Notes under the pieces: generated by a model | The model's input: only the letters and a program-made list of their open reading frames with translations | The model's database searches: none | What the model was told of the DNA's origin: nothing | Origin: Lichenibacterium dinghuense | GTDB lineage: Bacteria; Pseudomonadota; Alphaproteobacteria; Rhizobiales; Beijerinckiaceae | Direction of reading: 5' to 3' | Length of the DNA stretch: 64,000 bases | Assembly (NCBI RefSeq): GCF_021730615.1 | Contig: NZ_JAJLMN010000001.1 | Location: 5,423,501 to 5,487,500 of the forward strand | Translations under genes and position numbers: made by a program | Shown here: positions 10,100-31,587 of the stretch, piece by piece | How positions within the stretch are numbered: position 1 is the stretch's first letter | Layout of the letters: each line of letters opens with the position of its first letter

Positions 10100-10418
10100 T
10101 GTTCCCCCCCAACTTTACCGACATCGCTCGTGCTCGGCGACGATCACGGAAGATGTTTTCATCACTGCACCTCGGAGACTTTCGACCTGCAAGCAGACAT
10201 CCGACTATTAACCGAGAGCCCTGACGTCCACGAACCGGTTCCAGCAGTCGTCTCACCCGACTTGCGCGAGCGCGGCGCGTCGTATGATCAGAGTGGGCAT
10301 CAACCCCCTCGACCAGACCTTCTCGATCGGGAACCCTGTCGCGCGGGCCGTCCTCCCTGTCGAATGACGGCCTGCGATAGCCTTCCGCATCCTTAGCCTC
10401 TGCCTATGCGTCCGCCTT
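10100..10418. other. intergenic region, no gene seen
   Basis: This 319-base gap separates the unknown beta-rich gene from the 3' end of the PI-PLC-like gene. No open frame in it has coding character. A short inverted repeat (TCAGAC / GTCTGA, 10419-10436) overlaps the PI-PLC stop codon but lacks a U-run, so it is at best a weak terminator. The promoter of the downstream leftward genes could lie here, but no clear -35/-10 pair was identified. Confidence 0.5.
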
Positions 10419-12823: not shown

Positions 12824-14488
12824 TCAAGGCGGTTCAAGCACCAGTCCGGCAACCGAGGTCTCCAGATCTCCGACCGACGCAATCACGGACTCAAGCGACC
12901 TCAAATAGGACGCGCGGCACGCCTCCCGCCTCACCTTGCCGCTGCTCGTCTTCGGCAAACTCCCCGCCCGCACGAGCACGACCTCGTGCAGACGCACGCC
13001 GTGGTACAGCGCCACGGCTTCCAGGGCCGCCTTGTGCATGGCCGCGACGGGCGGCGCGGCGAGGCCGCGCGCCACCTCCTGGACGAGAACGACCGCCTCG
13101 GTCCCGTCCACCTCGCGCGCGAAAGCCGCCCCGACGTCGCCGAAGCTCGGGTGGCAGGCCGCCACCGTCGCCTCGACGTCGGCCGCGTGGATCTTCTCCC
13201 CCCGGTGGACGATGACATCCTTGATCCGCCCCGTGACGGTCAGGACGCCGCCGCGCAGCACGCCGAGATCGCCGGTCCGCAGGAAGAAACGCCCGGGGTG
13301 GGCGGCGAGCCGCGCCCCGAACGCGGCCCGCGTCGCGTCGGCGAGGCCGAGGTAGCCCACGCCGACGTGAGGGCCGGAGATCCAGATCTCGCCCTCCTCG
13401 CCGTCGCGACGGGGTTGCAAGGTCTCCGGGTCGGCGATCGCGACGAGCGAGCCCACCGCCGGTGCCCCGCAACGGGCCGTCAGCGCCGGGTCTGTGGCTT
13501 CGGCTGTTCCCTCGGCGTCCGCGCGCGACAGATAGTCACCCGACACGAAGGTCACGGCCTCGGCCATGCCGTAGCAGGGGTAGAGTGCCTCGGCCCGGAA
13601 CCCCGTGGGAGCGAAGCGCCGCGCGAAGTGCCGCAGGGTGGCGAGGCGCACCGGCTCCGCGCCACAGAAGGCCAGCCTCAGGTGGCGCAGATCGAGGTTC
13701 GCGATCACAGCATCGGGCACGCGGCGGGCACACGCCTCGAAGGCGAAGTTGGGCGCGCCGGTGATAGTGGCACGGTGCTGGCCGACGACACTCAACCAAG
13801 CCTCCGGCCGCCGCAGGAACGACAGGGGCGGCATGAGCACGCCGGGCACGCCGAAGTACAGCGGCATCAGCAGCATGGCGAGGCCCATGTCGTGGAACAG
13901 CGGCAGCCAACTCGCGAAACGGTCCCCCGGCGCAACGCCGAATGCGGTGCGGAGCATACCCAGGTTGGCCACCACGTTGGCGTGCGTCAGCATAACGCCT
14001 TTCGGCGCGGAAACGGAGCCGGACGTGTACTGCACGAAGGCCAGGTCGGCCGCCCGAGGCAGGCCGAGATCCTGGTTGGCGTCGCCGCTCCCCTCCTCGG
14101 CGCGGATGACTTCCACGCCCGGCGCGATAAATGGGAGATCGGCCCCGCCGGGGGTCACGACCGCGGCGCAGCGTGAGGCCTCGGCGAAGGCCTGCAGGCG
14201 CCGAAGGCTGCCGTTGCGCGGCGGGAGGGGGACGGGCGCGCAGGGCACGCCGGCGTAGAGGCAGCCGAAGAGCGCCACCACGGATCCGGCATCGGACCGG
14301 AGGGCGAGCAGCAGGGGCCGGTCCGCGGGCACGGCGCCGGCGAGGCGGCCCGCGAAGGCTCGCGCCCGGCGGTCCAGCTCCCCATAGGTGAGGACGTCGG
14401 GCTCGCCCTCGCCGCGGGTGAAGAACAACGCCTCGGCGTCCGGTCGGAGCCGCGCGTGTTCGCGAAGGGACTCGACGACGGTGGTCAA
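12824..14488 (-). CDS. fatty acyl-AMP ligase (FAAL-type AMP-dependent synthetase)
   Basis: 554 residues of the ANL superfamily. FVQYTSGSVSAPKGVMLTH is the ATP-binding P-loop. SWLPLFHDMGLAMLLMPLYFG is the hallmark of the FAAL branch. RTGDLGVLRGGVLTVTGRIKDVIVHRGEKIH is the hinge region, and LPKTSSGKVRR carries the catalytic C-terminal lysine. FAALs activate a fatty acid as acyl-adenylate and load it onto an acyl carrier protein rather than CoA. An ACP gene lies in the same leftward series, a natural acceptor. I place the start at TTG 14488, with AGGAG 11 bases upstream. The longer open frame to 15028 runs antisense-like over the preceding gene and is arginine-rich noise. Likely role: supplying the acyl group for an acylated glycan or lipid. 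Confidence 0.88.
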   Translation of the reverse strand: MTTVVESLREHARLRPDAEALFFTRGEGEPDVLTYGELDRRARAFAGRLAGAVPADRPLLLALRSDAGSVVALFGCLYAGVPCAPVPLPPRNGSLRRLQAFAEASRCAAVVTPGGADLPFIAPGVEVIRAEEGSGDANQDLGLPRAADLAFVQYTSGSVSAPKGVMLTHANVVANLGMLRTAFGVAPGDRFASWLPLFHDMGLAMLLMPLYFGVPGVLMPPLSFLRRPEAWLSVVGQHRATITGAPNFAFEACARRVPDAVIANLDLRHLRLAFCGAEPVRLATLRHFARRFAPTGFRAEALYPCYGMAEAVTFVSGDYLSRADAEGTAEATDPALTARCGAPAVGSLVAIADPETLQPRRDGEEGEIWISGPHVGVGYLGLADATRAAFGARLAAHPGRFFLRTGDLGVLRGGVLTVTGRIKDVIVHRGEKIHAADVEATVAACHPSFGDVGAAFAREVDGTEAVVLVQEVARGLAAPPVAAMHKAALEAVALYHGVRLHEVVLVRAGSLPKTSSGKVRREACRASYLRSLESVIASVGDLETSVAGLVLEPP

Positions 14489-14544: not shown

Positions 14545-17500
14545 CTATCCAGATCCCGTCACGGGGAAAATACCATCGCCGGTCACAGAAGACGCGGCGA
14601 CTGCACCCAGGCGATAAGACCGCCCCTTTCCGCTCCAGCGGAAGCGGAACGCGTCGCGCTCGGCCTCCGTGTAGAGATGCCTGATCACCTCGGACTCGTA
14701 GATGCTGTCGAGCCAATGCGGGGGCGCCACGAAGGAGGCGAGAAAGGGTCGGTAGGTCGCGTCGTAGCCCTGGCTTTCGGAGGTGTTCGCGAAGGGGATG
14801 GCGACGCGGTCGCGGTCGACGAGCCAGCCGAGTTCGGCCTCCCTCGCAGCGAGAGCGTCCTCCTGGCGCAACACCAAGACCCTCAACCGGTCCGACGCGA
14901 AACGGAGGGACTTGCGGGCGTGGTCGAAGCGGTGCTCGCGGACGTCGAAGCCGAACGTCGCCTTGTACGTGTCGTCGAACCAGGCGCCCCAGAGATCGGG
15001 AATCCGAGCGATCCCTCGTCCGTCCCACCAGGCGATCAGGGCCTCGCGGTCCCTCACGATGTCCGCGCCGGTCTCCGCGCGATGCCGCTCTGCGGTGTAG
15101 AATGCCTGCGACAGGATGCGCGCGACGGGGTCGCGGATGCTGGTGACGAAGCGGAACCGCCTCTCAGGATCATCGACGGTTCGGGCCACCTTCGACGCGA
15201 GCCTGCACATCGGCTCAGGGTCGGTGCCCTTCAATGCCATCGCGCGGGGACCGAGGAAGTGGAGGTGGATCGCATTCGGGAAACCGGCGCTATGAAGGGC
15301 GGCGGCTAGCGCCATGGATCCGGTCTTCCCGAACGAGAGACAGCCCAGGGTCGGCGGCGAGTCGCGCTGCTCCGGCTCCTGTGGCGGGGCGGAGACGTCG
15401 AGCGTCGACGTGTTCGCATACCACCCGTTGCGGGTGTCGAAGCCCAGCCAGGCGTCCGCGAGGGCGCCGATGTCGACCGCGATGCCGCCGAGTGCCTTGA
15501 TGCGGGCACAGTACACCTTGCCCAGCAGGCCCGCCGCGACCAGGAACACGCAGCCGGGCCGGGGCACGGACAGCGTGTCCATGAGCCGCTCGTAGGCTGT
15601 CGGGAAGTGCGGAGTCGCCGGCCCGGCGCCAGTCGCCGAGGGCAGGCGCTGCTCGCCAGGGACGACGTGCTCGATCACGCGCCCGATCCCCGCCCGTCGG
15701 GCGAGGGCCTGCGCGAGGCCCGGGTGGGGCGAAATCATCCCGAGGACGTCCTGTCCTTTGAGCAGCGCGGTCAGGAACGGCGTCTCGGCGTCGAGGGCGC
15801 GCAGCACGAGGGCATCGGTGAAGCGGACGTCGGGGCGTCCGGCGAAGCATCGCCGCAGCCACCGCTCCTGCCACGCCAAGTACCCGTAGTGCGCCGTGTC
15901 CCGGCGGAGCCGCTCCGCGCTGCAGGCGCCCACGACGTCGGCCGCGAGGATGGCCCTCTCGTAGGACGCGCGCAGGCGGGCGCGCTCTTCGGCCTGCGTC
16001 TCGGATGCGGTCTCGCCGAACCAGTTCTCCCACACCACGTCCAGCATGGCGCCCCGCTCGTCAGTCCCCAGACTGGCTACAACCTCCGCCCCCTCGCCGA
16101 TGAGGTAGCGCGCCTCGCCGTCCCCCACGCGGATGAAGGCAAAGGGCCGGCGCGCGCGGATCGCGGACGCGATCGCCCCGCGCAGCGCCGGGGCGTCGAG
16201 CCACGCTTCGGAGGCGGCGTGGTCCCCTGCCGCGGCGATCTCCTCGTCGCGCGGATGCATGAGGGCCAGCTTGGCGTGGCCGCTGATCATCGCGAGATGC
16301 CGCGGGGCTCGAGCATGGGCAGCATCGACGCCTTCGCGCCTGAGGATGTCGATCACCGACAGGAGTTCGGCGTAACGGGCCTCGCCGCTGAGCAGGTCGA
16401 GGTAGTCGCGCAGGAAGGCGAGGTGGCGATAGCCGTCGGCGAAGGCCCGCGCGAGGACGTCCAGCCCCTGAGCCGCGCGGCCCTCATCCCTGAGAGCCAC
16501 ACCTTCCCTCCAGGCCGCCTCGGGCGTGGGGACGAGGTCGCCACCGGGCGATGTGGGCCGTAGTGGATCGTCGGCGGTCGGCGACGCGGGCTCCGGACGC
16601 TTCTCGGACGCCACCGCATCCTCGCCCGTGCGGACCGGACCGGAAGGTGCATCGGCGTCCATCAGGGCGCGCCTCAGGAGGTCTCCAAACTGTCCGCCCT
16701 CGATCAGCGCCATGTGGGCGTCGTGCCCGTCGACGTCCGGCACCGCCTCGACCGTCACACCGCTGATGCCGGCCAGGGCCAGTGCTGCCGCAGCATCCTG
16801 GGCGTTGTCCGCGCTGTGGACGAGGCATACGCGCGGCCGCGGCGAAGCCGTCGCGTAGAGGCGCGCCAGATCCGGCAGGTGAGGTCGTCGACGGTCGGCC
16901 CCGCGGTACGATACGATCTGCTCTTCCGAGATCAGGATCATCGCGTTGACTGCGAGCACGGCGGCGGCGCCCATCTCGAGCCCGTACAGCAGAGCGGCGT
17001 ACCCGCCATTAGAGTTACCGTAGCAAGCGATGCGGGTCGCCCCGAGTTCGTCGACGACGCCTCGCAGGGTTCGGATTGTCGCACCCCGGTCGCCGCCCAG
17101 CGTTCGCAGGCCGCCCGCGTAGAGCTCACCGTCGGGGTCGCGGAGGTAGACGACGTGGACGCCGAGCGGGGCGAACCAGCGATGTGCGATGGGCAGCGGG
17201 AAGCCGAGCGAGCCGTGGCGGCCGCAGAAGACGAGCAGCACCTCGGTCGCGTTGCCGCACCGCACCACTCGCATCTCCTGCGCGGCGTCGTCCAGGAAAC
17301 CCGCGAAGTTCGGGTCGTCGACGGCCGGCGGCATGCGTGAGAGCAGCATCGCGAGCCTCGCGACGTAGAGGCTGCCCGGGAAGGCCGCGACGAGATGGGG
17401 TGCGGCATGGGCCGCGGCGGCGAGTGCCCCATACCGGATCAGGTGCTCCAGCGCCAGGAACCAGAGCTTCGCATCGCCCGCCTCCGTCCGGGGAAGGCTG

Positions 17501-17553
17501 TCCTGCTCGAAGCAGTGGCGAAGGTGGCGCGCCAAGCTGCGCGGATCAGACAT
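14545..17553 (-). CDS. three-part protein: alpha/beta-hydrolase-like, GT-D glycosyltransferase and sulfotransferase-like domains
   Basis: 1002 residues. The N-terminal part (~1-280) has CYGNSNGGYAALLYG at ~178, a nucleophile elbow like that of serine hydrolases. The middle (~390-715) ends in a GT-D-type domain: FAFIRVGDGEARYLI at ~475 with the D-G-E metal motif, then DVVWENWFG, HYGYLAWQERWL and GLLGKVYCARIKALGG. The C-terminal part (~735-1002) begins CLSFGKTGSMALAAAL, a P-loop-like 5'-phosphosulfate motif, and continues RFRFVTSIRDPVARILS, resembling sulfotransferase or capsule-synthesis proteins. ATG 17553 was chosen because it overlaps the ACP stop by 8 bases; the frame upstream is antisense noise. 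The middle region is clearly paralogous to the protein at 25248-28163. Order of action and substrate are unknown. Confidence 0.75.
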   Translation of the reverse strand: MSDPRSLARHLRHCFEQDSLPRTEAGDAKLWFLALEHLIRYGALAAAAHAAPHLVAAFPGSLYVARLAMLLSRMPPAVDDPNFAGFLDDAAQEMRVVRCGNATEVLLVFCGRHGSLGFPLPIAHRWFAPLGVHVVYLRDPDGELYAGGLRTLGGDRGATIRTLRGVVDELGATRIACYGNSNGGYAALLYGLEMGAAAVLAVNAMILISEEQIVSYRGADRRRPHLPDLARLYATASPRPRVCLVHSADNAQDAAAALALAGISGVTVEAVPDVDGHDAHMALIEGGQFGDLLRRALMDADAPSGPVRTGEDAVASEKRPEPASPTADDPLRPTSPGGDLVPTPEAAWREGVALRDEGRAAQGLDVLARAFADGYRHLAFLRDYLDLLSGEARYAELLSVIDILRREGVDAAHARAPRHLAMISGHAKLALMHPRDEEIAAAGDHAASEAWLDAPALRGAIASAIRARRPFAFIRVGDGEARYLIGEGAEVVASLGTDERGAMLDVVWENWFGETASETQAEERARLRASYERAILAADVVGACSAERLRRDTAHYGYLAWQERWLRRCFAGRPDVRFTDALVLRALDAETPFLTALLKGQDVLGMISPHPGLAQALARRAGIGRVIEHVVPGEQRLPSATGAGPATPHFPTAYERLMDTLSVPRPGCVFLVAAGLLGKVYCARIKALGGIAVDIGALADAWLGFDTRNGWYANTSTLDVSAPPQEPEQRDSPPTLGCLSFGKTGSMALAAALHSAGFPNAIHLHFLGPRAMALKGTDPEPMCRLASKVARTVDDPERRFRFVTSIRDPVARILSQAFYTAERHRAETGADIVRDREALIAWWDGRGIARIPDLWGAWFDDTYKATFGFDVREHRFDHARKSLRFASDRLRVLVLRQEDALAAREAELGWLVDRDRVAIPFANTSESQGYDATYRPFLASFVAPPHWLDSIYESEVIRHLYTEAERDAFRFRWSGKGRSYRLGAVAASSVTGDGIFPVTGSG

Positions 17554-17827
17554 CGCCGACGGATCCAGGAGCGGCGCCGCGCGGCGAAGGCGCGGCGTCG
17601 GCCGACAGTCGTTCGTCGACCCAGGCCGCCAGTGCACGTACGTTGGCAGAGCCCTCCATGAGTTCGATCGGCATCTCCACGCTGAACGCGCTCTCGATCT
17701 CCAGCGCGACCAGCACGGCCTGATGGGAGTCGCTGCCGACCTCGTACAAGTCATCGTCAAGATCGAGATGCACGAGCCCGAGGACATCGGCGCAGATGGC
17801 CGTCACTCGGGCCTGCGTCGGCGTCAT
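17546..17827 (-). CDS. acyl carrier protein
   Basis: A small acidic helical protein of ~93 residues (108 if started at ATG 17872). It contains LYEVGSDSHQAVLVALEIE, where the Ser of G-S-D-S-H is the expected 4'-phosphopantetheine attachment site, although the usual Leu after Ser is His here. ACPs carry acyl chains as thioesters. It stands just before the hydrolase/GT-D/sulfotransferase protein (8-base overlap) and upstream of the acyl-AMP ligase on the same strand, which makes it the likely acceptor for that ligase. I prefer the start MTPTQARVTAI because family members begin close to the first helix. Neither candidate start has a strong ribosome site. Confidence 0.85.
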   Translation of the reverse strand: MTPTQARVTAICADVLGLVHLDLDDDLYEVGSDSHQAVLVALEIESAFSVEMPIELMEGSANVRALAAWVDERLSADAAPSPRGAAPGSVGDV

Positions 17828-17911
17828 GTCGCGGAGCGCGAAGCTGGTGCGAAAAAATCCTTGGCTCCGCATGGGCGGTCATGACACGTCCGGATCATGC
17901 GCGTGTATCCT

Positions 17912-20041
17912 TCACGGTCCGCCAGCGTCCACTGCCGCAACGGGCAAGCACACAACTCTGAACGATTCTACCAAGATGCCGAGGGCACGACAATCGGGCG
18001 GGCTCTCGTCCGGCCCTTTCGGACGCATGATGAGTAGTTCGACGGCGAGCGTGCCAGCCTCCTCAGCCTCCTCGGCCTGCGCCACGAACGCGATGCGCGA
18101 GCGGCCTGCCGGGAGCGCGAACAGCCTTGGCTCGCCCCAACCGCTCCTCACGATGACGTCGTTCCCGTCCTCCCCGGATCGGACCGACTGCGCGACCCGG
18201 ATCTCGACGAATAGCGTGCCTTTCGTCTGCCCGTGGGGGATCGATAGAACAGCGCGGGAGCCGTCCGTCCAGCAGCCCCACTCCTCCCGAAACGAGAAAC
18301 CCGAGGCGAGGTAGGCTCCCGCATCTTCGTGGCCGAGGTGGACTGTGTCGCCCATCGCATAGGGCATGCGGAACGTGGCGAAGCGCGCCATCAACACCTC
18401 GGCATCCGCGTCGGGCCAAGCCTGAAGCACGGGGGAGAACAGGTGGCGGACCAAGGCCTGCTCGGCCGCCGTGTGGAGGGCGAGGTCCGGCGGGAGCGCC
18501 GCGATGGCGGTGGCGATTTCGTGCGGCGGGAGGGCGAGCCATTCGAACAGGCGGCCCGACGCGGCCCGTAGGTCCGAGCTGAGGTCCTCGTACTTCACGA
18601 CGAGGACGGCCCCGCCGTAGCGTTCCTTGACGCTGATCAGGGTTCTCCAGGCGGCCAGCCACTGCGTCGCCGCTTCCTGGACCGTCCGGATCGGCCACGC
18701 GTCCCGGCCTCTGCGGGTCGCCTCGCGTCGCACCAGCGACGAGCGCACGACGTCAGCGGGGTTGCGGATCACGGCGACGACGCGCAGCTCGGGGAAGCGC
18801 GAGAAGAGGAGCGGCACATCCTCCCACTCGGCCGTGACCGGCATCTTGTCGCCGACGTAGCGGAGGTCCTTGCCTGGGAACATGCCGGCGAACAGTCCCG
18901 CGGCCACCGCGTGAAAGTGCTCCGGCTTAGGATCCCCCCCGCCGCGCGTGATCGCGGCCCTGCCGGGCCGGTCGCGATACACGGCCATGGCGGCGTTGAA
19001 CGCTTCGTCGTCCGGATCGCCGGGGCTGTCCCAATCCTCCTCAGCGGGCGCCGGCTGCGCGACGATCGCGTCGATCCTGCGAAGGAGTTTGGTTAGCCCA
19101 TATTCCTGCAACAGGCCGACCTGCGGATGCTCGGTCAGCATGGCGCGCAACAGGGACGTCCCGCTGCGCGGCGCGCCCGTGACGAGCAGCCAGCGCGGCC
19201 CCTCGATCCGCGGCACCGCCACCTCGGGCACGAGCGCGGTCATGCCGTCGGCTATTGCGCCGTACAAGCCGTCGAGCTGCAGCCGTTCCTCGGGCGTCCG
19301 GGCTCCCGTCGCGACCAGGAGGTCGTAGATGCCTTTCTCGCGCGCCCCCGCCATCGTGTCGGCCTCGGCTTCACCGACCGAGTGGCGCTTCAGACCGTGG
19401 CTGAGAAACTGCCCGACCTTCCGCTCGCCGGCTTCGTCGAGGAGCGGCGGTCGCCCCGCAGCCTCGGCGACCCGGGTCAAGGCGCCCTGCCAGGATCGCA
19501 GGAGGTCGTCGAAAGTCACGAAGACGCGCGCAGATCCCCGCGTGGCCCGCTCCGCGGCCATCGTGTACGAGGCCCAGAGGGACAGCCCTCGGGACATCTC
19601 GAAGCCATCCCGCGCCTTGAGGGACGCAGCGACCTCCGACGGCCGCCGCAGCATGATGACGTAGACGGGACGAAGGCCGCGGCCGGTCAGGATCTCCTGC
19701 CAGAGGGGGACCAGCAGCGAGAGCCGGGGATCCTTCAGGATGAGCGGCCCCGGCCCATGAAATTGGTTTGTGAGAACCTCCGCGGCACGCGCGACCTGCT
19801 CTCGCGTCGCCGCCGCGGAGGGTATGGGGGGACGGTCCCAAGTCCCGCCGGCACGCGCTAGGGCGTCGTCGTCGAAGGCGACCACGGCCCGCGACTCCCA
19901 GCAGCCGGTCGGGTTATCCACGGGGTGGGGCGGCAGAAGGTCATGCGGCAGATCGCCGAACCCCGCCAAGCTCAGGGCGCGCGCCATCGCGGACGTGCCG
20001 CTCCGATGCGAGCCCAGGATCACGTAGATCGTGCCACCCAA
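17912..20041 (-). CDS. tandem sulfotransferase with two P-loops and a C-terminal beta-sandwich
   Basis: 709 residues. The first unit begins TIYVILGSHRSGTSAMARAL and the second (~residue 285) begins LLVTGAPRSGTSLLRAML. Both match the 5'-phosphosulfate loop of PAPS-dependent sulfotransferases. The expected downstream 3'-phosphate segments follow (VYVIMLRRPSEVAASL and RVVAVIRNPADVVRSSL). The last ~140 residues (FSFREEWGCWTDG, SRIAFVAQ) resemble a beta-sandwich found on glycan-modifying enzymes. Two catalytic-type units in one chain are unusual. TTG 20041 is chosen as start because GAGG lies 8 bases upstream and the domain begins at once; the frame continues to 20386, but that part is not protein-like. 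This is the first gene of the leftward series. Confidence 0.8.
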   Translation of the reverse strand: MGGTIYVILGSHRSGTSAMARALSLAGFGDLPHDLLPPHPVDNPTGCWESRAVVAFDDDALARAGGTWDRPPIPSAAATREQVARAAEVLTNQFHGPGPLILKDPRLSLLVPLWQEILTGRGLRPVYVIMLRRPSEVAASLKARDGFEMSRGLSLWASYTMAAERATRGSARVFVTFDDLLRSWQGALTRVAEAAGRPPLLDEAGERKVGQFLSHGLKRHSVGEAEADTMAGAREKGIYDLLVATGARTPEERLQLDGLYGAIADGMTALVPEVAVPRIEGPRWLLVTGAPRSGTSLLRAMLTEHPQVGLLQEYGLTKLLRRIDAIVAQPAPAEEDWDSPGDPDDEAFNAAMAVYRDRPGRAAITRGGGDPKPEHFHAVAAGLFAGMFPGKDLRYVGDKMPVTAEWEDVPLLFSRFPELRVVAVIRNPADVVRSSLVRREATRRGRDAWPIRTVQEAATQWLAAWRTLISVKERYGGAVLVVKYEDLSSDLRAASGRLFEWLALPPHEIATAIAALPPDLALHTAAEQALVRHLFSPVLQAWPDADAEVLMARFATFRMPYAMGDTVHLGHEDAGAYLASGFSFREEWGCWTDGSRAVLSIPHGQTKGTLFVEIRVAQSVRSGEDGNDVIVRSGWGEPRLFALPAGRSRIAFVAQAEEAEEAGTLAVELLIMRPKGPDESPPDCRALGILVESFRVVCLPVAAVDAGGP

Positions 20042-20401
20042 ATCCGAGCCCTCGTTCCTCGGTACAGTCGATCCATCCACACGCTGCAGATCCGAAGCCT
20101 CTCGAAGGCTCCCCACCGACCGATCGATGCGCTGTCGCGAGCGAAGCGCTGCACCGGCAGGGTATTGAAGCGGCGGGCGCGCGTCGATGATGATGAAGCG
20201 TACACGCGTGAAAACGCACGCGATCGAGGCGTGCGCCCGCATCCCGATCGATGTAGAACCATCCGACGTGCGCAGGGGACGCGTTACGAAGGTGCGCCGA
20301 GCGGTGGTATCTCGGCGCGCGTTCGGCGCGTCCGCTGTAGGACGAGCGCGTCCAACGCCGAGCGCGCCCTGGACCGTCGAGCGCATTCACGGGGTTCAAC
20401 C
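20042..20401. other. divergent promoter region of the glycan island
   Basis: A 360-base region between two divergent starts (leftward TTG 20041 and rightward ATG 20402), so it should contain the promoters of both series. No convincing sigma-70 pair or regulator palindrome stands out, and no gene is supported in it. Open frames crossing it are arginine-rich and shadow-like. Confidence 0.5.
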
Positions 20402-21919
20402 ATGCAGAGTGCGGGCGTGAGGTCGCTCTACCTGATCAACCCTCGGCCGCACGTCGCCAACTACGACGTCGCACCTGGCTTCATCACGATCCCCGACCTC
20501 GCCATCCTGACCGTCGCGGCGATGGCGCCGCCGGGCTGGGACGTCACGGTGTGCGAGGAGGAGATCCTCGATGTGGACCTCGACACGCCGGCCCGCTTCG
20601 TCGGGCTCACGGGCAAGAACGCGCAACTGCCGCGCATGATCGAGTTGGCGGACGCGTTCCACGCTCGCGGTAAAGTCGTTCTCGTCGGCGGTCCGTTGGC
20701 CAGCCTGGATCCCGAAGCCCTACGGCCGCACGCCGACATCCTTGTCACCGGCGAGATGGAGGACATCGCGCCCCGCCTCTTCGCGGACCTCGCGTCGGGC
20801 AAATGGAGCACGCACTATGAGGGTGGTCGCCCCGACCTGCGCACGTCGCCAGTGCCCCGCTGGGACCTGTACCCGGTAGACCGCGCCCTGATGGGCGCGC
20901 TGCAGACGACGCGGGGCTGCCCGTTTGACTGCGAGTTCTGCGACGTCATCCGCTACAATGGGCGCAAGCAGCGCCACAAGGACGCGGATCAGATCCTGCG
21001 CGAGTTGGACGCCCTGCATGCGGCGGGCTTCCGTCAGGTGTTCCTGACCGACGACAACTTCACCGTACATCGCCAGTTCGCTCGCGCGACGCTCGACGCG
21101 TTGGCGGATTGGAACGGGCGGCACGCCACCGACCCCATGCGGTTCGTCACGCAGGCCTCGGTCGACGTCGCCCGCGACGAGGACATCCTGCGGCGCTGCG
21201 CGAAGGCCGGGCTCGACCACCTCTTCGTCGGCATCGAGACCGTGAATACAGCGAGCCTTCGCGAGACGAACAAGCGGCAGAACCTGCTGATGCCGGCCCA
21301 CGAGGCAGTCCAGCGCATCGTTTCGCAGGGCATCCTCGTCCGCAACGGCCTCATGGTGGGCTTCGATCACGACGGGCCCGACGTCTTCGACACCCTCTTC
21401 GACTTCCAGCAGTCCGCACCGCTCCCGATCCCCACCGTCAATGTCCTTTTCGCCGCTAAAGGGACGCCGTTGCACGACCGCATGCATCGGGATGGTCGTC
21501 TCGTGGAGCGCGACTCCAGATGGAGCGAAAACCTTTTCAGCAATGTCGTCCCGAAGCTGATGACCTACGATGCCTTGATCGAAGGCGCTCGGTCTCTGGC
21601 GCGTCGCCTGTTCGTGCCGGCCGCCTTCGAGCACCGCGTGATGAACTTCATCGCGGCCTTCGGGACGGCGGCCGAGGGATCGGCCGAACGACCAACGCCA
21701 GGTCGGTCCGCTGCCGGCCCACGGGGAACCTACGCGCTGGGCTGCATGCGCCGCATCGCGTCGCGCGGTGAAGACGAAGCCAGGATGGTGTCGCGCGTGC
21801 TGGCCGCGGGGGCACGGAAGCCTGGCACCCTGCGGAGCATCATCACCTGCCTCGTCTTCTACGATCAGTATCGCGCCTACCTGGACGACGCCGACCGGCG
21901 CCGGCTCGTCGCGGCTTAG
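20402..21919 (+). CDS. B12-binding-type radical SAM protein
   Basis: 505 residues. The N-terminal ~150 residues form a Rossmann-like cobalamin-binding-type domain (LYLINPRPHVANYD, TVAAMAPPGWDVTVCEE, FVGLTGKNAQ, VLVGGPLASLDPEA), without an obvious D-x-H-x-x-G. The radical SAM core follows with C173-x3-C177-x2-C180 (GCPFDCEFCD), the [4Fe-4S] cluster site. VFLTDDNFTVHRQFA and HLFVGIETVNTASLRETNKRQN are typical of the B12-radical-SAM/Elp3-like fold. A C-terminal DUF4070-like helical region ends the chain. Members carry out radical methylation or rearrangement in the making of lipids, sugars and natural products. The 159 codons upstream of ATG 20402 are non-coding in character. It heads the rightward series. 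Confidence 0.88.
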   Translation: MQSAGVRSLYLINPRPHVANYDVAPGFITIPDLAILTVAAMAPPGWDVTVCEEEILDVDLDTPARFVGLTGKNAQLPRMIELADAFHARGKVVLVGGPLASLDPEALRPHADILVTGEMEDIAPRLFADLASGKWSTHYEGGRPDLRTSPVPRWDLYPVDRALMGALQTTRGCPFDCEFCDVIRYNGRKQRHKDADQILRELDALHAAGFRQVFLTDDNFTVHRQFARATLDALADWNGRHATDPMRFVTQASVDVARDEDILRRCAKAGLDHLFVGIETVNTASLRETNKRQNLLMPAHEAVQRIVSQGILVRNGLMVGFDHDGPDVFDTLFDFQQSAPLPIPTVNVLFAAKGTPLHDRMHRDGRLVERDSRWSENLFSNVVPKLMTYDALIEGARSLARRLFVPAAFEHRVMNFIAAFGTAAEGSAERPTPGRSAAGPRGTYALGCMRRIASRGEDEARMVSRVLAAGARKPGTLRSIITCLVFYDQYRAYLDDADRRRLVAA

Positions 21920-22072
21920 CGCGGTGCTGCATCCCGCCCGTCAGGCCGCGTGGTCGCGACGGCCGGAACTGTCCATATCTCCGCACCTATCTCCCCGGGA
22001 CGCCCCGGCGTACATCGCGGAGCGGGCGCGATCGACGGATCTGGATGGATGCCTGGGGTGGACGCTCTGACC

Positions 22073-25000
22073 ATGGACCACCGCTCTCCACATCCCGACC
22101 TCGCGCAGAGCTCCGCCCTCCTCCAACGCGCCCTGCTCATCGCGGCCACCATCTTCGATGCTGACTGGTACGGCCGTCTGCACGGCCTCGACGGCCTGGG
22201 CAAGCCAGAGCTCTTTATTCACTACACCTGCCAGGGAATGTTCGGCGACCTGAGCCCCCACCGGCTGTTCGACGCGCGTCATTATCGAGAACAGGCGAAC
22301 CTTCCAGACGCCACCCCCGCGCTGCTCCACTACGCGGCGAACCCGTCGACGGGCACGGGAGATCCCCACCCCCTGTTCGACGCCGCCCACTACCTCGATC
22401 AAGCGCCGGACCTGGACGACGGCGCCGACGATCCCCTCTCCCACTTTCTGCGCGCTGGCGGCCAGAACGGGCTCAATCCCCACCGGCTGTTCGACGTCGC
22501 CCATTACCTCGCCGAGAATGCGGTCCGATTGGAACGCGGGCAGGATCCGATCACTCACTTCCTCATGGTCGGCGCGGCTCGGGGCTGTTCGACGTCGCCC
22601 TGCTTCGACCTGCCCTGGTACTGCGCCATGTACGCGGACCGGCTGCCGCCCGGCATCAACCCGCTCGTGCACTACGTCACGGTCGGACACCGCACCGGCT
22701 TCAATCCGAACCGCGCCTTCGACTGCGAGGCCTATCGCCGCCTGAACGGGATCACGTCGAGCGATGTCGATCCGCTGTGTCACTTCCTTGAGGAGCCATG
22801 GGGGGCGGGGCGCCAGTTGCCGGCCGGCGTCGTGTTCTCCGCCGGAGCGGGTTTCTCCGTGCTTTCGACAAGGGCGGAGCGCTTGGGGCGGCACCCCCTC
22901 GTGTCGATCGTCGTCTGCAACCGGAACGGGGCACACCACCTCGCGGACCTGTTCGACAGCCTCGCGCGGCAGACCTACCGCAACCACGAGATCGTCTTCG
23001 TCGACGACGCCTCGACCGACGCGTCCCTACACGTCGCCGGGTTGCAGCCCGGCATCCGAATTGTGCGGCTCGCGGAGCAGTCCGGGTTCGCGACGGCGAA
23101 CAACGAGGGGCTGAAGGCATCGCGGGGCGAGGTCGTGGCGCTCCTCAACAACGACACACGAGTCGACGAGAACTGGCTCGAGGGGCTCGTCCTCAGGATG
23201 CGCGACGACCCCACGGTCGGCGCCGTCGCGCCGAAGATCAGGTTCTGGACGAAGTTCACGCGGATCAGGATCGAGGCACCCGCGCCCTTCGCGGTCGACG
23301 GCGGCGTGCTGCTGGAGAAGCTCTCTTACCGGAAGTACGTGCTGAAGCAGGGGGATCGAAAAGACGGCGTGATCGTGGCTGTTCAGCACGCCCCGGGAGG
23401 CTTTCGCGTCGAACTCGACCTGCCACTCTGTCAGGATGTGATCGAGGTGCCGATCCCGGACATCCCAAAAGGCCTCGCGATCGCGATCGACGGCGTGAAG
23501 AGCGTCTCGCGTGTGGTCTACAGACGGGAAACACCGCAGGCCGTCGAGGTCCGCCTCGGCGAGAACGGGATCTTCCGATCGGGCTTCCACATCATCAACA
23601 ACGCGGGCAGCGTGACGCAGGACGACGGCATGCCCGCCGACCGAGGCATCTTCGAGGTCGACGCACCGCCGTATGATGAACCGGTCGAGGTCCCGTATCT
23701 TTGCGGCTGCTCCGCGCTCGTCAGGCGCAGCGCCCTGAACGGCCGCCCGCTGTTCATCGATGAACTCGGGTTCTACTACGAGGACAGCGAACTGTCCCAT
23801 CGCATCCGAACGTCGGGCTATCGCATCGTCTACGAGCCGCGCTCGATCGTCTACCATAAACACTCAGCATCGACCGCGGAAGGTTCGCCCCTCTGGAGGA
23901 GGTACACGGAAAGGAACGCGGCCCTGATGAGGTACATCCTGACTGGATGCGAAGACGCCCAGGTCATCTTCGACAGTCTCGCCAAGCTCAACCATCTCCT
24001 GGGCTGGTACAGCGAGAACGCTCCACCGGACTCGGCCGAGCGGCGATACGCGGAGATCATACCGCAGATCATGGAGGAGCTGCCGCTCCTGGCCGGCAAG
24101 ATCAAGAACGGTGGCCTTCCCGCGCGGAAGGCAAGGAGGATCGGCGTCTACAACCCTTATTGGATGACGCTCGGCGGCGGGGAAGCCCACGCGCTGAATA
24201 TCGCCGAGGCACTCGCGACGGACGGGCCTGTCGAGATCATCTCGGAGTCGGACTTCGATCTCGACGAGGTCTGTGGCTTCTTTGGGGTGAGCGGCACTCG
24301 CTTTCTCAAGCGCATCGTCGCCCCGATGACGCCGAAGATCACCGAAGACTACGACGTGTTCGTCAACTCGTGCTTCCAGAGCGTCATGCCGTCCCTCGCC
24401 GCGACGTCGCTCTATGTCGTCAGCTTCCCAACGCGACACGCGACCCGGTCCTTCGTCGAGAGCTACACCTTTCTGGCCAACTCCCGATTCACCGAGGGCT
24501 GGATCGAGACGTTCTGGCGGGAGCACCATCCGCGCACGAGCGTTCTGTATCCGTCCGTCGCGGATGCGTTCTTCGTTTCCGAGGCGGAGTTGCGGTCGAA
24601 AAACAGGACCATCCTCTCCGTGGGGCGCTTCGCCACGAAGGGCCACAGAAAGTCCCAGATCGAGATCGCACGAGCGTTCAAGACCTCCGTTTCATCCGGC
24701 CAGATCGGGCCGAACTGGCAGCTCGTCCTGATCGGAAGCAGCGACGACCCGGCCTATACTGCGCAGATCTCCGAGGTGCTGTCGGGGTGCAGCCATCGCA
24801 TCCTGATCGACGCCGCATTCGCGGACGTCGTGGAGGCCTACAGGCGGGCGAGCGTCTATGTGCATGCGAGCGGCATGGACGTGGACAGCGACGCTGATCC
24901 GGAACTGTGCGAGCACTTCGGCATCGCGGTCGCGCAGGCGGCCGCGAGCGGATGTGCGCTCTGCGTGTACGACGCGGGCGGGCCGGCGGAGATCGTCGAC

Positions 25001-25204
25001 ATGCTCGACAGCGGGGTCAAGTTCAGGACAGGGCGGGAGATGTGCGACCGCCTGCGGGACCTCACCGCGCGCTTCGATCGGGACGGTTTCGATCGGGCCG
25101 AGGGGGGCCGACTCATCGAGCGGGCCCGCCGCTTCGCGCGGTCGGCTATCCGGCGAGACCTCGCGCGGGAACTGGCCGCCTCGAACCCGCGAGCGGCCCC
25201 GTGA
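22073..25204 (+). CDS. bifunctional glycosyltransferase (GT2 + GT4) with N-terminal tandem repeats
   Basis: About 1043 residues. The first ~250 hold repeated units of the type NPHRLFDxxHYL...DPLxHFLxxG, a module found in front of bacterial glycosyltransferases. The GT2 core starts at ~275 (PLVSIVVCNRNGAHHLADLF, VFVDDASTD, ALLNNDTRVDENW as D-x-D-like, FYYEDSELSHRIRTSGY). The second half (~685-1035) is GT4-like: IGVYNPYWMTLGGGEAHALNIAEAL, ILSVGRFATKGHRKSQIE and FGIAVAQAAASGCALCVYDAGGPAEIV. One chain could add two sugars in succession. ATG 22073 is preferred; ATG 22049 is possible. The gene lies 153 bases after the radical SAM gene and 43 before the next gene. Confidence 0.88.
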   Translation: MDHRSPHPDLAQSSALLQRALLIAATIFDADWYGRLHGLDGLGKPELFIHYTCQGMFGDLSPHRLFDARHYREQANLPDATPALLHYAANPSTGTGDPHPLFDAAHYLDQAPDLDDGADDPLSHFLRAGGQNGLNPHRLFDVAHYLAENAVRLERGQDPITHFLMVGAARGCSTSPCFDLPWYCAMYADRLPPGINPLVHYVTVGHRTGFNPNRAFDCEAYRRLNGITSSDVDPLCHFLEEPWGAGRQLPAGVVFSAGAGFSVLSTRAERLGRHPLVSIVVCNRNGAHHLADLFDSLARQTYRNHEIVFVDDASTDASLHVAGLQPGIRIVRLAEQSGFATANNEGLKASRGEVVALLNNDTRVDENWLEGLVLRMRDDPTVGAVAPKIRFWTKFTRIRIEAPAPFAVDGGVLLEKLSYRKYVLKQGDRKDGVIVAVQHAPGGFRVELDLPLCQDVIEVPIPDIPKGLAIAIDGVKSVSRVVYRRETPQAVEVRLGENGIFRSGFHIINNAGSVTQDDGMPADRGIFEVDAPPYDEPVEVPYLCGCSALVRRSALNGRPLFIDELGFYYEDSELSHRIRTSGYRIVYEPRSIVYHKHSASTAEGSPLWRRYTERNAALMRYILTGCEDAQVIFDSLAKLNHLLGWYSENAPPDSAERRYAEIIPQIMEELPLLAGKIKNGGLPARKARRIGVYNPYWMTLGGGEAHALNIAEALATDGPVEIISESDFDLDEVCGFFGVSGTRFLKRIVAPMTPKITEDYDVFVNSCFQSVMPSLAATSLYVVSFPTRHATRSFVESYTFLANSRFTEGWIETFWREHHPRTSVLYPSVADAFFVSEAELRSKNRTILSVGRFATKGHRKSQIEIARAFKTSVSSGQIGPNWQLVLIGSSDDPAYTAQISEVLSGCSHRILIDAAFADVVEAYRRASVYVHASGMDVDSDADPELCEHFGIAVAQAAASGCALCVYDAGGPAEIVDMLDSGVKFRTGREMCDRLRDLTARFDRDGFDRAEGGRLIERARRFARSAIRRDLARELAASNPRAAP

Positions 25205-25247
25205 AGCGGGAAGCGCTCTGCCGCGACGGCTCCGGGGCCGAACGGTG

Positions 25248-28163
25248 ATGCCCTCCCAGGATCGCCCGCTCTTCGCCGACGTCGTGTTCGGGCCGGTCCT
25301 GAGCCTCGGCGCGAACTGCGAGCCCGCGCACCACCTGCGGATCCAGGGCCGCCACCAGCCCGGGCTGTTCGATTGGCTCGTCACGCCGCTCGACGCAATC
25401 GAGCACGTGCTCGCGGACGATGGCGCGAAGCTGGGCAGCGCCTTCATCGCGGTCCAGGAAGGGAGGTCGGTGCGGTGCGGCGCCTACGATCTGCTCTTCC
25501 ACCACGAGTTCCCGCGGCGCGACGGCGACCTCGTGATGTTCGATGCCGCGGCTGTCGAGGCCTGTGGTTCGAAGCTGGCCCACAAGTGGCACCGCTTCAT
25601 CCAGGCCTGCGAGGGCGGGGAGCCCGTGCTCTTCGTCCGCTTCTCAGCGCTGACCGGACTGCCCTGGGACCGCATCGATCCGGCAAGGGATCCGCTCGGG
25701 ATCGGAGACCTCAACCGGCTCGCAGCGGCGTTGGGGCGCCGCTTCCCCGGACTGGTGTTCCGCCTGCTCGTCGTCCTGCCGGAGCCCGACGGTGGAAGCG
25801 CGTCGCCACTCGAGGGCGCGCCGCAGCCCCTCGACGCGCGCGTCGCGGTCGAGCGGATGCCGGCGAAAGCCGGGGGGGCCTGGTCGACGTCGGACGGGGA
25901 CTGGCGCGCGCTGCTCGCACGGCTTCGCTTCCGCTCGCCTGGGCGGGCGACGGCGCTCGGTGAAGCCCTGCACTGGTCCGGGGAGGACGCCGCGGCGCCA
26001 AAGAGCCCGTACGTGTCGGCCCGGCCGGGGTTGGCCTCCGAGATCGCGGCGGAAGTTTTGGAGGGCAGGTTCGACGCGGCCCTCCACCACCTCGACCTCG
26101 CCGTCGCCTTCGGGGCCGAATCCCCCGAGGCGGCCGTGGAACTCGGCCAGGATCTCTGGAGGGGGTTCCGGTCACACCAAGCGACGGTCGCCTTCGGCGC
26201 GGCCTTCGCGGCGGGCCGCCGGGAGCCGGAGTTCCTCCGGGACCACCTCGGCCTGCTATCGGGCGAGACCCGCTACGGCGAGGTGCTGACGACGGCTGCG
26301 ACATTGACGACGGCCGACGCGGCCCTGCGGCGCGACATCCTCGCCTTCACCGGGCACGCGCGGCTCGCCCTGGCCCACGATCGAACCGCCGAGATCGAGG
26401 CGGCGGAGCGACGCGAGGCGTCGCCGCGCTGGCTCGACACGGCGGCGGTGATGGCGCGCATCGAAGCGCATCTCGCCGAGCGACGGCCCTTCAGCCTCAT
26501 CCGGCTCGGCGACGGGGAGGCGCGGTTCCTGATCGCGGCGCGGCGCGGCCTCTGCCCCGACATATCGGACGCCGAGGCCGGCGCGATCGGCTCGGTCGTC
26601 TGGCACAATTGGTTCGGCCGCGACTGGGCCGACGCCGACCCAGCCGCAGTCGCCGATCTGGCGACGTCCTACGAGGAAGCCGTGGCGCAGGCCGACATCG
26701 TCGGCGCGAGCGACAGCACCCGGTTGCGCCAGGACACGGGGCATTACGGCTATCTCGCCGCGCAGGAGCGGTGGCTTCGCGGGATCGGCACCTCCCGGCC
26801 GAGCCTCGCCTGGACCAGCGCTTTCGTGCATCAGGATCTCGACCGCGCGGCGCCGTTCCTGGCGAGCCTTCTGCAGGGGAGGCGGACCGTCGGCCTGATC
26901 AGCCCGCATCCGAGGCTGGCGGAGCGCCTGCGGCGGCGCTTCGGCATCGGGACTGTCGTCTCCCACGTCATACCGGGCGAGGGTCGCCTGCCCGGCACCA
27001 TACGGGGCCCGAACGCCGTCGGGCACTTCCCAGACCTGTACGGTCGCCTGCTGGCGACGATCGAAGTTCCGGAGCCTGGGTGCCTGTTCCTGGTCGCCGG
27101 CGGCCTGCTCGGCAAGATTTACTGCGCGCGCATTAAGGCGCTCGGCGGCGTCGCGATCGACGTCGGCGCGCTCGTGGACGCGTGGATGGGCTACAACACG
27201 CGGTCGGGGCAGCTCGCCGGCGTCGGCACCCTGGAGGTGCCGCCCGCTGCCGCCGCGGAGGGAAGCTCCCACCTCGCAGCGGGGCAGGCCGAGCACGATC
27301 GCCTGCAGAGGGAGCTCGCAACCCTCAAGCAACGGCTGGACGAAGGCTTCGCCGTCGACTTCAACGACTTCGCCTATCGGCCGAGGGAGCGGGACTGGTC
27401 CGAGGCGAGCGGCGCCGGGGCGATCGCCCGGCGCTTGGAGGCCGACGAGGAGCGCTACGCCCGCCTGCTCGAGCAGATCTGCAGCTTCGCGGCACGATTT
27501 CGCGCCATCCCATCCTTTCCTGCCCCGGACAAGCCGCATTGGGAGAACTGGTGGCTGCCCGGCCTTGACGCCGCGGTGCTCTACGGCCTCGTCGCGATCC
27601 GGGCGCCGCGCGTCTACATGGAGATCGGATCAGGTTTCTCCACGAAGTTCGTCAGGCAGGCCATCATCGACAACGGCCTGCCGACGCGGATCGTCTCGAT
27701 CGACCCGCATCCGACCGCCGACGTCGACGCCATCTGCGATCGGGTGATCCGCGAGCGTTGCGAGGACGTGTCGCCGCAGGTGTTCTCCGGGCTCGACGAG
27801 CGGGACATGCTGTTCGTCGACAACAGCCACCGCAGCTTCCAGAACTCCGACGTTACCGTCTTCTTCACCGAGATCCTCCCGTCGCTCGCCCACGGCGTCA
27901 CCTATGGCCTGCATGACATCTTCGTGCCGTTCGACTATCCACAGGGCTGGACGAACCGGTTCTACAACGAACAATATCTCATGATGGCGTACCTGCTCGG
28001 CGGCGCCGACGACGACGACATCGTCTTCCCGACGCACCACGTGTCGCGCGAGCAGGCCTTCGCGCCGCTGCGCGACCGACTGCCGGCAGAGGTGAGGCAC
28101 CTCGACGGGCTGGCGTCGTCGTTCTGGATGCGGCGCCGAACCGATGGACGGACGCCCAGATGA
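25248..28163 (+). CDS. three-part protein: DUF1796-type cysteine-peptidase-like, GT-D and SAM methyltransferase domains
   Basis: 971 residues. Residues ~10-240 resemble the papain-like DUF1796 family: SLGANCEPAHHL supplies Cys24, followed by FDWLVTPLDA and KWHRFIQA. The middle (~290-680) repeats the architecture of the protein at 14545-17553: FSLIRLGDGEARFLI at ~415 with the GT-D D-G-E motif, HYGYLAAQERWL and GLLGKIYCARIKALGG. The C-terminus (~780-971) is a class I methyltransferase with VYMEIGSGFSTKFVRQ, IVSIDPHP and DMLFVDNSHRSFQNSD. ATG 25248 follows an in-frame GTG. The gene ends in an ATGA shared with the next gene. The N-terminal domain in DUF1796 proteins is poorly understood; it may bind rather than cleave. 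Confidence 0.8.
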   Translation: MPSQDRPLFADVVFGPVLSLGANCEPAHHLRIQGRHQPGLFDWLVTPLDAIEHVLADDGAKLGSAFIAVQEGRSVRCGAYDLLFHHEFPRRDGDLVMFDAAAVEACGSKLAHKWHRFIQACEGGEPVLFVRFSALTGLPWDRIDPARDPLGIGDLNRLAAALGRRFPGLVFRLLVVLPEPDGGSASPLEGAPQPLDARVAVERMPAKAGGAWSTSDGDWRALLARLRFRSPGRATALGEALHWSGEDAAAPKSPYVSARPGLASEIAAEVLEGRFDAALHHLDLAVAFGAESPEAAVELGQDLWRGFRSHQATVAFGAAFAAGRREPEFLRDHLGLLSGETRYGEVLTTAATLTTADAALRRDILAFTGHARLALAHDRTAEIEAAERREASPRWLDTAAVMARIEAHLAERRPFSLIRLGDGEARFLIAARRGLCPDISDAEAGAIGSVVWHNWFGRDWADADPAAVADLATSYEEAVAQADIVGASDSTRLRQDTGHYGYLAAQERWLRGIGTSRPSLAWTSAFVHQDLDRAAPFLASLLQGRRTVGLISPHPRLAERLRRRFGIGTVVSHVIPGEGRLPGTIRGPNAVGHFPDLYGRLLATIEVPEPGCLFLVAGGLLGKIYCARIKALGGVAIDVGALVDAWMGYNTRSGQLAGVGTLEVPPAAAAEGSSHLAAGQAEHDRLQRELATLKQRLDEGFAVDFNDFAYRPRERDWSEASGAGAIARRLEADEERYARLLEQICSFAARFRAIPSFPAPDKPHWENWWLPGLDAAVLYGLVAIRAPRVYMEIGSGFSTKFVRQAIIDNGLPTRIVSIDPHPTADVDAICDRVIRERCEDVSPQVFSGLDERDMLFVDNSHRSFQNSDVTVFFTEILPSLAHGVTYGLHDIFVPFDYPQGWTNRFYNEQYLMMAYLLGGADDDDIVFPTHHVSREQAFAPLRDRLPAEVRHLDGLASSFWMRRRTDGRTPR

Positions 28164-30849: not shown

Positions 30850-31587
30850 TCAGGCCGAGGCGCGGTTTTTGAAGCGCCAACTCTCGTTGCCGGTCTCGAC
30901 GATCTCGCAATGGTGGGTGAGCCGGTCCAGCAGTGCGGTCGTCATCTTGGCATCGCCGAACACGTTCGGCCATTCACCGAAGGCCAGGTTGGTCGTCACG
31001 ATGACGGAGGTCTGCTCGTAGAGGCGGCTGATGAGATGGAAGAGGAGTTGCCCGCCAGACTGGGCAAAGGGCAGATAGCCGAGTTCGTCGAGCACGATGA
31101 AGTCCATGCGCGACAGGTAGTCGGCCATGCGGCCGTGGCGGCCGGCGCGGCCTTCGGCTTCGAGCCGGTTCACGAGGTCGACGACGTTGAAATAGCGGCC
31201 ACGGGCGCCGTTGCGGATGCAGGCTCGGGCGATCCCGATGGCGAGGTGAGTCTTGCCGGTCCCGGTGCCGCCCACCAGGACAGCGTTGCGCTGGTGAGCA
31301 AGGAACTCGCCGCCGGCGAGATCGCGCACCAGCATCTCGTTGATGAGCGTGCCTTCGAACCGGAAATCCTCGATGTCCTTGGCTAAAGGCAGCTTGGAGA
31401 TGGTGATCTGATACTTGATCGAGCGCGCCTGTTTCTCGGCGATCTCGGCCTGCAGCAGATCACCGACGATGCGTTGCGGCTCGTGCTGGCGCTTCAACGC
31501 CGTGGTGATGATCTCGTCGTAGCCGGCCTTCATGCCGTAAAGCTTCAGGTCCACCATCGTGGCCAGGATTTCGGAACGTTCCATCAC
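30850..31587 (-). CDS. istB: IS21-family helper ATPase IstB
   Basis: 245 residues of the AAA+ transposition helper type related to Dna[16 protein letters not shown] is the Walker A motif and [12 protein letters not shown] is Walker [13 protein letters not shown] is the sensor-like segment. IstB binds DNA and ATP and stimulates the IstA transposase. The start codon overlaps the istA stop in ATGA (31584-31587), the usual IS21 coupling. The protein is full length and appears intact even though istA is broken. Confidence 0.93.

Follow-up and report, generated by a model that had tools for sequence, protein, structure and literature searches.

Why does one bacterial locus encode two large proteins that share a block in the middle and differ at both ends? 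The question is raised by a 64,000-nt stretch of the Lichenibacterium dinghuense genome (assembly GCF_021730615.1, contig NZ_JAJLMN010000001.1, positions 5,423,501–5,487,500; hereafter the window), in which an earlier note had pointed to two "giant" proteins on opposite arms of a divergent locus, and had proposed a modular family where a core of the GT-D glycosyltransferase fold is paired with exchangeable tailoring enzymes. P0001 and P0002, as the two are called here, do form a pair, and an uncommon one, and the modular family to which they belong is real as well; the label "giant" is too strong for about 1,000 residues.

14545–17553, minus strand: P0001, 1002 residues; hydrolase-like, TPR-like, GT-D-like and NKWYS parts
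25248–28163, plus strand: P0002, 971 residues; DUF1796-like, TPR-like, GT-D-like and Methyltransf_24 parts

The reading favored here, which is probable without being secure, is that they are paralogs, each uniting several enzymes, in a single locus for glycan building: in both, a tetratricopeptide repeat (TPR)-like stretch and a GT-D-fold core are flanked by enzymes decorating one and the same product.

A Shared Block between Unrelated Ends

Residues 289–724 of P0001 and 237–666 of P0002 align in BLASTP with 46% identity (200 of 437 positions identical) at an expect value (E) of 1e-96, which rules out chance similarity and bears out the alignment of about 400 residues claimed by the earlier note; all the motifs quoted there, GHA[KR]LAL, IR[VL]GDGEAR[YF]LI, HYGYLA[WA]QERWL and GLLGK[VI]YCARIKALGG, lie within it. 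The other four BLASTP pairs between the proteins are short, with E from 0.84 to 8.4, so that the ends are unrelated at that sensitivity, and the claim that everything differs outside the core holds. Both reading frames are intact at these coordinates; because they are open throughout, and neighboring genes overlap or abut them in the manner of an operon, broken or mis-joined genes can be ruled out as well.

The block common to both consists of about 110 residues of TPR-like helices followed by a GT-D-like domain of about 270 residues; of the "GT-D core" seen before, the second part stands, while the first had been overlooked.

16198–16527, minus strand: TPR-like helical stretch of P0001 (residues ~343–452), common to P0002
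26121–26432, plus strand: TPR-like helical stretch of P0002 (residues ~292–395), 44% to the TPR part of an Asaia relative (L056; E 4e-11)
15382–16200, minus strand: GT-D-like domain of P0001 (residues 452–724), PF22882 at E 8.9e-10, with the conserved motifs
26430–27245, plus strand: GT-D-like domain of P0002 (residues 395–666), PF22882 at E 1.7e-13, with a fold match to 4phr and 4pfx

The roughly 110 residues preceding the core are 42% identical between P0001 and P0002 (E 2e-15). No Pfam TPR family matches either protein; their TPR nature is deduced from homology to L056 and to a second relative, L053, together with the all-helical model of P0002.

Fold and Motif of the Core

Pfam scans of the window genes covered positions 1 to 39042. 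In PF22882, called "GT-D fold-like domain" by Pfam, P0001 scores 38.7 and P0002 50.9 bits, both above the curated cut-off of 27 bits. A predicted model of residues 292–670 of P0002 is confident (predicted local distance difference test, pLDDT, 93.7; predicted template modeling score, pTM, 0.92), and Foldseek returned 756 matches for it (E up to 10), of which just two, 4phr and 4pfx, pass E 0.001. Both are DUF1792 GT-D structures, one of them with manganese; they match at E 8–9e-4 with probability 1.00 and with template modeling (TM) scores by target length of 0.56–0.58. In a confident model, then, the middle region folds like GT-D, and the structure prediction by which the earlier idea was to be checked has DUF1792/GalT1 entries as its best matches in the PDB. 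Ranked after these are many TPR-containing O-GlcNAc transferases (E 0.0017 or worse, TM score by query below 0.25), which probably come through the TPR part. A core profile of 15 rows (A2), compared with PDB sequences, recovered two GalT1 sequences alone at E up to 5 (E 0.22), and the resulting alignment pairs the R-x-G-D-G-E and GK...D-x-G stretches. The core as a member of PF08759, the original GT-D family, was dropped as that family's cut-off is not reached; what remains of the "GT-D core" is the fold and PF22882.

Across 64 aligned cores (the two window rows and 62 relatives; 291 is to be added for P0002 numbering) R128, G130, D131, G132, E133, G328, K332, D347, G349 and D353 are invariant, giving a conserved layout with R-x-G-D-G-E near the N-terminal end of the domain and K and D-x-G...D near its C-terminal end. 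Relatives in genome contigs were sought with a pattern that held R..DGE, those in viral contigs with R..DGE or G-G-x-A-x-D-x-G-S; since most rows were recruited with a DGE-containing pattern, part of the motif invariance was selected for; neither pattern includes K332 or D353.

Could such a fold persist without glycosyltransferase activity, for example as a sugar-nucleotide or sugar-phosphate scaffold that presents a substrate to the end domains? Annotation of the core stops at the family level, and one relative, L046 (5329–6819; DUF1796 plus GT-D-like), retains the domain without the DGE motif; its core was found by the two-row profile (E 3e-35), not by PF22882, and is a probable non-catalytic copy as judged from its sequence. 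Against a scaffold speak the invariance of the motif in the 64 rows, most of them DGE-selected, and its presence in GalT1, reported as active in the available text of PMC5063993; the scaffold is accordingly held to be improbable.

Partners at the Ends

16654–17286, minus strand: N-terminal alpha/beta-hydrolase-like domain of P0001 (residues ~90–300), with invariant G-x-S, Asp and His
14632–15369, minus strand: C-terminal NKWYS domain of P0001, sulfotransferase-like, PF10364 at E 2.4e-11, with a GKTGS loop and R-x-P-x5-S
25248–25847, plus strand: N-terminal DUF1796-like domain of P0002, PF08795 at E 0.0095, below cut-off
27477–28142, plus strand: C-terminal methyltransferase of P0002, Methyltransf_24 (PF13578) at E 2.2e-10, with homologs in many genomes

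Four end domains had been named from the letters, and they fared differently. The methyltransferase of P0002 is borne out (41.8 bits against a curated cut-off of 26.3); a 285-residue homolog of it lies about 6.4 kb from one GT-D gene in Methylobacterium sp. WSM2598. The "hydrolase-like N-terminus" of P0001 belongs to no Pfam family; it does belong to an alignable family in which G100, S102, D174 and H198 are invariant in 12 rows (the window and 11 loci), with Ser, Asp and His in this order and a G-x-S nucleophile elbow, around which the profile matches solved alpha/beta hydrolases (best E 0.0045). The "sulfotransferase-like C-terminus" is an NKWYS domain (44.2 bits against a curated cut-off of 25.1), for which no solved relative was found by profile. 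GKTGS and R-x-P-x5-S, of which K and S of the former and the residues of the latter are invariant in three rows, are candidates for the phosphosulfate-binding loop and the 3′-phosphate motif of sulfotransferases dependent on 3′-phosphoadenosine 5′-phosphosulfate. An NKWYS protein from a viral contig (L220, 3001–3603) also matches Sulfotransfer_2, weakly and below cut-off (E 0.0011), which hints at a place for the NKWYS family among the sulfotransferases.

For the "DUF1796-type N-terminus" of P0002, homology stands (33% over 167 residues, E 5e-29, to a DUF1796-annotated Mesorhizobium protein) and the Pfam cut-off does not (16.2 bits against 23). We know of no tailoring role for DUF1796, and nothing was found in the literature under that name.

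Distribution and Recurrent Fusions

In its own genome of 6.1 Mb, PF22882 occurs in two places alone, P0001 and P0002, and this is the only one of six genomes of the genus to hold the family, which is present in 11 of 297 genomes sampled from the order and in 8 of 398 from the phylum (own included; the order and phylum samples overlap each other). PF08759 gave no match genome-wide, in a scan whose controls gave no signal either. Whole-protein searches of the class (385 genomes, two candidates scored per genome) returned matches to P0001 in 13 genomes and to P0002 in 104, again counting their own, and outside it none among the matches listed covers more than one enzyme part; several of the methyltransferase, hydrolase and DUF1796 matches are frames of 500 to 1327 residues compared over the matching part alone. 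Four of 41 relatives searched matched, own included. Of the plasmid records, 20 hold a match to P0002 and 8 one to P0001, none in a place reaching 80% of the query (best 29%), and the "phages" collection held no match to the P0002 core. As no match with the whole four-part order appeared in these samples, the architectures of P0001 and P0002 are called unique among the genomes sampled.

A first scan of genome contigs with the two-row core alignment as profile returned 0 relatives. The loci that do hold a core frame number 134: the best 80 of 106 from genome contigs, 33 from viral contigs, and 21 from the set L029–L052, which has at least 8 genes in common with the 80 (e.g., L030 = L070). Pfam was scanned in 32 of the 134, for L030 in part. 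By the lengths of mechanical open frames, at least 100 residues precede the core in 54 of the 80 genome loci, a count that is perhaps too high because start sites are uncertain in GC-rich DNA; at least 150 residues follow it in 11, and both apply in 7. Of the 33 viral loci, 28 have neither 100 residues before nor 150 after the core. TPR families exceed the cut-off in 12 of the 32 scanned loci and fall below it in 5 more.

The partners recur in kind. A methyltransferase and a core share one chain in L072 (TPR-GT-D-Methyltransf_11), in L133 and L134 (Methyltransf_24-GT-D) and, weakly, in L159; a sulfotransferase in L078 (TPR-GT-D-Sulfotransfer_4); and DUF1796 in L046. Glycosyltransferases precede the core in L039 and L047 (GT2-TPR-GT-D) and surround it in L057 (Gly_transf_sug-GT2-TPR-GT-D-GT4-Anp1); partial scans found the combination also in L058, L064 and L160. 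The Azospirillum chains L057, L058 and L064 reach 1733–1965 residues; L058 and L064, in which the scan covered the part behind the core, have GT4 and Anp1 there too. The stretches that follow the core in L038, L080, L107, L082 and L109 are of domain size and pass no Pfam cut-off, and those of L061 (Sulfotransfer_3 at E 0.043) and L071 remain below it. Single-sequence phmmer searches with the ends and middles against the open reading frames of the loci found the P0002 middle in L056 alone.

The expectation that other genomes would have the same fusions is thus answered in two ways: recurrent combinations exist, and neither exact architecture does in what was sampled. The modular idea as a whole is partly supported, by the fold and by the recurrent fusions. 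It is partial because the activity of the core is a prediction and DUF1796 has no tailoring role that we know of, and because the TPR-like part and the carrier-protein and acyl-ligase genes described below had been overlooked.

History and Neighbors of the Nearest Relatives

In a tree of 114 cores, P0001 and P0002 are sisters (support 100/98). Going outward from the pair, the next branches are L054, the couple L053 and L056, and finally L055 and the long-branched L046; L053–L056, which come from Acetobacteraceae and Rhodoblastus, are plain TPR-GT-D proteins. The history that needs the fewest steps would be that such a plain gene was duplicated locally and that the two copies then acquired different domains at either end. 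A phage origin of the window cores was dropped, viral relatives being on other branches than the pair and mostly stand-alone.

The genes beside these nearest relatives include a separate Methyltransf_24 protein and WcbI at L053, WcbI and a UDP-sugar dehydrogenase at L056, a GT2-WbsX protein at L054 and a methyltransferase at L055; PMC4104973 describes WcbI as a CoA-binding polysaccharide enzyme. L053 also lies near an AMP-binding enzyme, with genes for 3-hydroxyacyl-CoA dehydrogenase and electron-transfer flavoprotein beyond. A neighbor tally without a control set, covering 102 genes at 20 loci (of 188 genes picked from 30 loci) and listing 25 of 166 families, holds five matches each to Methyltransf_25, Methyltransf_11 and Methyltransf_23, three each to NAD-sugar families, three to WcbI, and two each to Sulfotransfer_4, AMP-binding and GT2.

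The Locus and a Probable Acyl-Carrier Link

17546–17827, minus strand: acyl carrier protein gene, PF00550 at E 4e-12; its end overlaps the P0001 start by 8 bases
12824–14488, minus strand: fatty acyl-AMP ligase (FAAL) gene, PF00501 at E 1.6e-64; next after P0001, start approximate

P0001 is flanked by a carrier-protein gene upstream and a FAAL gene downstream. The closest solved structures to the ligase are FAALs rather than CoA ligases, and the fatty acyl-AMP ligase models of NCBIfam match it strongly, below their whole-protein cut-offs. Carrier-protein genes also adjoin 8 of 14 free relatives of the P0001 hydrolase, seen with a flank of about 1.5 kb or less for most (L166; L167, where it is annotated; L171, L172, L179, L182 and L225; and L174, whose carrier gene runs off the end of the locus, E 0.003). 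From these carrier genes beside P0001 and beside the free hydrolases, an acyl-carrier is likely to be the substrate of the hydrolase-like domain.

Further genes of the two arms, and elements beside them, are:

1862–3076, minus strand: GT4 glycosyltransferase, PF12000 at E 1.6e-54
3073–6063, minus strand: protein with a C-terminal Methyltransf_11 domain, PF08241 at E 1.5e-8
5931–8267, minus strand: GT2 glycosyltransferase, PF00535 at E 1.4e-13
8264–9229, minus strand: RTX-type calcium-binding repeat protein, on the minus arm
10419–12293, minus strand: PI-PLC-X plus BNR-like protein
17912–20026, minus strand: sulfotransferase (Sulfotransfer_3), PF13469 at E 1.9e-25; start approximate
20411–21919, plus strand: B12-binding radical S-adenosylmethionine (SAM) protein, PF04055 at E 5.9e-21 and PF02310 at E 5e-8; head of the plus arm
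22109–25204, plus strand: two-domain GT2 + GT4 glycosyltransferase, PF00535 at E 4e-25 and PF00534 at E 2.7e-13; start approximate, end 43 bases before P0002
28160–29860, plus strand: right-handed beta-helix protein, PF13229 at E 5.2e-14; overlaps the P0002 end by 4 bases
30850–32420, minus strand: IS21-type transposase pair, directly right of the plus arm

GC content is 0.50 at 10001–12000, compared with 0.66 just left, 0.63 just right and about 0.70 farther out, so that the PI-PLC-X/BNR-like region is probably foreign; the IS21-type pair possibly marks the edge of an island.

P0001 is flanked by FAAL and carrier protein, and the other arm begins with a B12 radical SAM protein; these three might be the core of a secreted small-molecule lipid pathway, leading to a lipidated, sulfated glyco-natural product which the GT-D-like domains merely glycosylate. 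The NCBIfam matches of the carrier would suit this, with free acyl carrier protein first and carriers of nonribosomal peptide synthetases (NRPS) or polyketide synthases second, both below cut-off. However, no ketosynthase or NRPS condensation domain is among the Pfam matches of the scanned range, and the nearest core relatives adjoin WcbI, UDP-sugar dehydrogenase or WbsX genes, with the qualification that the AMP-binding enzyme near L053 stands beside genes of fatty-acid oxidation type; such a pathway is regarded as unlikely, if the least unlikely of the three alternatives to a glycan-building locus considered here.

The RTX-type and beta-helix genes suggest the third, namely protein glycosylation, in which the core would build an O-glycan on secreted acceptors among the calcium-binding and beta-helix proteins of the locus. 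According to the available text of PMC5063993, glycosylated Fap1 is the substrate of a DUF1792 GT-D domain that forms part of a bifunctional protein, and there are many TPR-containing O-GlcNAc transferases, though weak and probably drawn in by the TPR part, among the PDB matches. The acceptors would be candidates only, however, and polysaccharide and sugar-nucleotide genes are what the nearest relatives adjoin, which leaves this the least probable of the three.

Proposed Mechanism

For paralogous multi-enzyme proteins of a glycan-building locus, the following course can be proposed. The core would take a sugar from its nucleotide donor and transfer it, and R-x-G-D-G-E would bind the metal and the donor in the way of DUF1792; P0002 would next O-methylate the sugar, and P0001 would sulfate it via NKWYS and handle an acyl chain, roles suggested by family and context. 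To this end, the FAAL would activate a fatty acid and load the carrier protein encoded just upstream of P0001, whose serine hydrolase-like N-terminus might pass the acyl group to the sugar or release it; the benefit of fusion would be that successive steps stay side by side. What results would probably be a sulfated, methylated, perhaps acylated surface glycan or glycolipid.

A number of observations weigh against this reading. With respect to the core, PF08759 matches neither protein at E up to 1, the NCBIfam GT-D domain model gives 22.6 and 35.8 of the required 75 bits, the similarity to GalT1 is marginal in sequence and the TM-scores are moderate. In L046, R-x-G-D-G-E is gone, and as this protein is of the same clade, the core can persist without the motif. 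With respect to the ends, the NKWYS profile found no solved structure, and the full-length single-sequence model of P0001 has a pLDDT of 40.6, too poor to show the folds of its ends. For the other 6 of the 14 free hydrolase relatives (L176, L177, L178, L184, L214 and L217), the flanks showed no carrier protein. The L053 methyltransferase has no BLAST similarity to that of P0002, which makes it a member of the same Pfam family and not a demonstrated unfused ortholog. Finally, in the listed part of the neighbor tally the glycan context of core loci is frequent, not dominant.

A wider idea, tentative and considerably less probable than the glycan-building reading itself, is that the TPR-GT-D-like unit is a general chassis for glycan assembly, to which bacteria, and viruses in simpler form, attach differing donor-handling and decorating enzymes; P0001 would then be its sugar, acyl and sulfate version, fed by FAAL and carrier, and P0002 its sugar and methyl version. 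If true, carrier-protein assembly lines would have a counterpart in glycan building, and the GT-D fold would have a branch with multiple tailoring enzymes.

Comparison with Known Systems

GalT1 (dGT1) of Streptococcus parasanguinis (PF08759; 4phr, 4pfx) has the same fold by Foldseek, with motif stretches that align, and like P0001 and P0002 it is part of a multi-enzyme protein, in which GT-D is joined to a second glycosyltransferase in a bifunctional chain for consecutive steps (PMC5063993, available text). Unlike GalT1, the window pair has no PF08759 match, contains a TPR-like stretch, carries non-glycosyltransferase partners on both sides and stands in a locus with a FAAL and a carrier protein; its sugar transfer is a prediction from sequence. 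While both cores belong with PF22882, their paired four-part architectures set them apart from the sampled proteins of that family. Closest are L053–L056, with 41–48% identity in the best segment and the same order of TPR and GT-D-like parts; unlike the window pair, these stop 11–17 residues past the core, and their tailoring enzymes, if any, are separate neighbors. The ligase after P0001 resembles FAALs of the FadD23/FadD28/FadD32 kind, and a carrier gene is part of the same run; unlike FadD-kind systems, there is no polyketide synthase among the window genes scanned, and it would be a fused alpha/beta-hydrolase-like domain that accepts the acyl group.

To our knowledge, few members of the GT-D fold are characterized. 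Literature searches on GT-D/DUF1792, DUF1796, PF22882 and NKWYS, covering few subscription journals, found the branch undescribed in titles and abstract openings, as did a search combining the GT-D fold with multidomain and methyltransferase, among the matches listed. For the accession or name of PF22882 and for NKWYS no literature was found, and the combination of FAAL, sulfotransferase, glycosyltransferase and carrier protein led to mycobacterial cell walls alone, with no description of the branch in the available parts of those sources. If the glycan-building reading is right, the fused partners are labels that predict the decoration (methyl, sulfate, acyl or further sugar) of each GT-D-like enzyme's product, so that one could predict the products of otherwise unannotated loci and test them domain by domain; the link between carrier protein and FAAL would be a starting point for tracing carrier-dependent sugar acylation.

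Paired GT-D-like genes also occur in viral contigs: in 12 of the 33 loci (L135, L140, L141, L143, L144, L145, L146, L148, L150, L151, L152 and L155) two such genes lie close together. In 10 of 11 of these pairs (L144 repeats L143) the copies are on different branches of the tree, a pattern that would suit the addition of two linked sugars.

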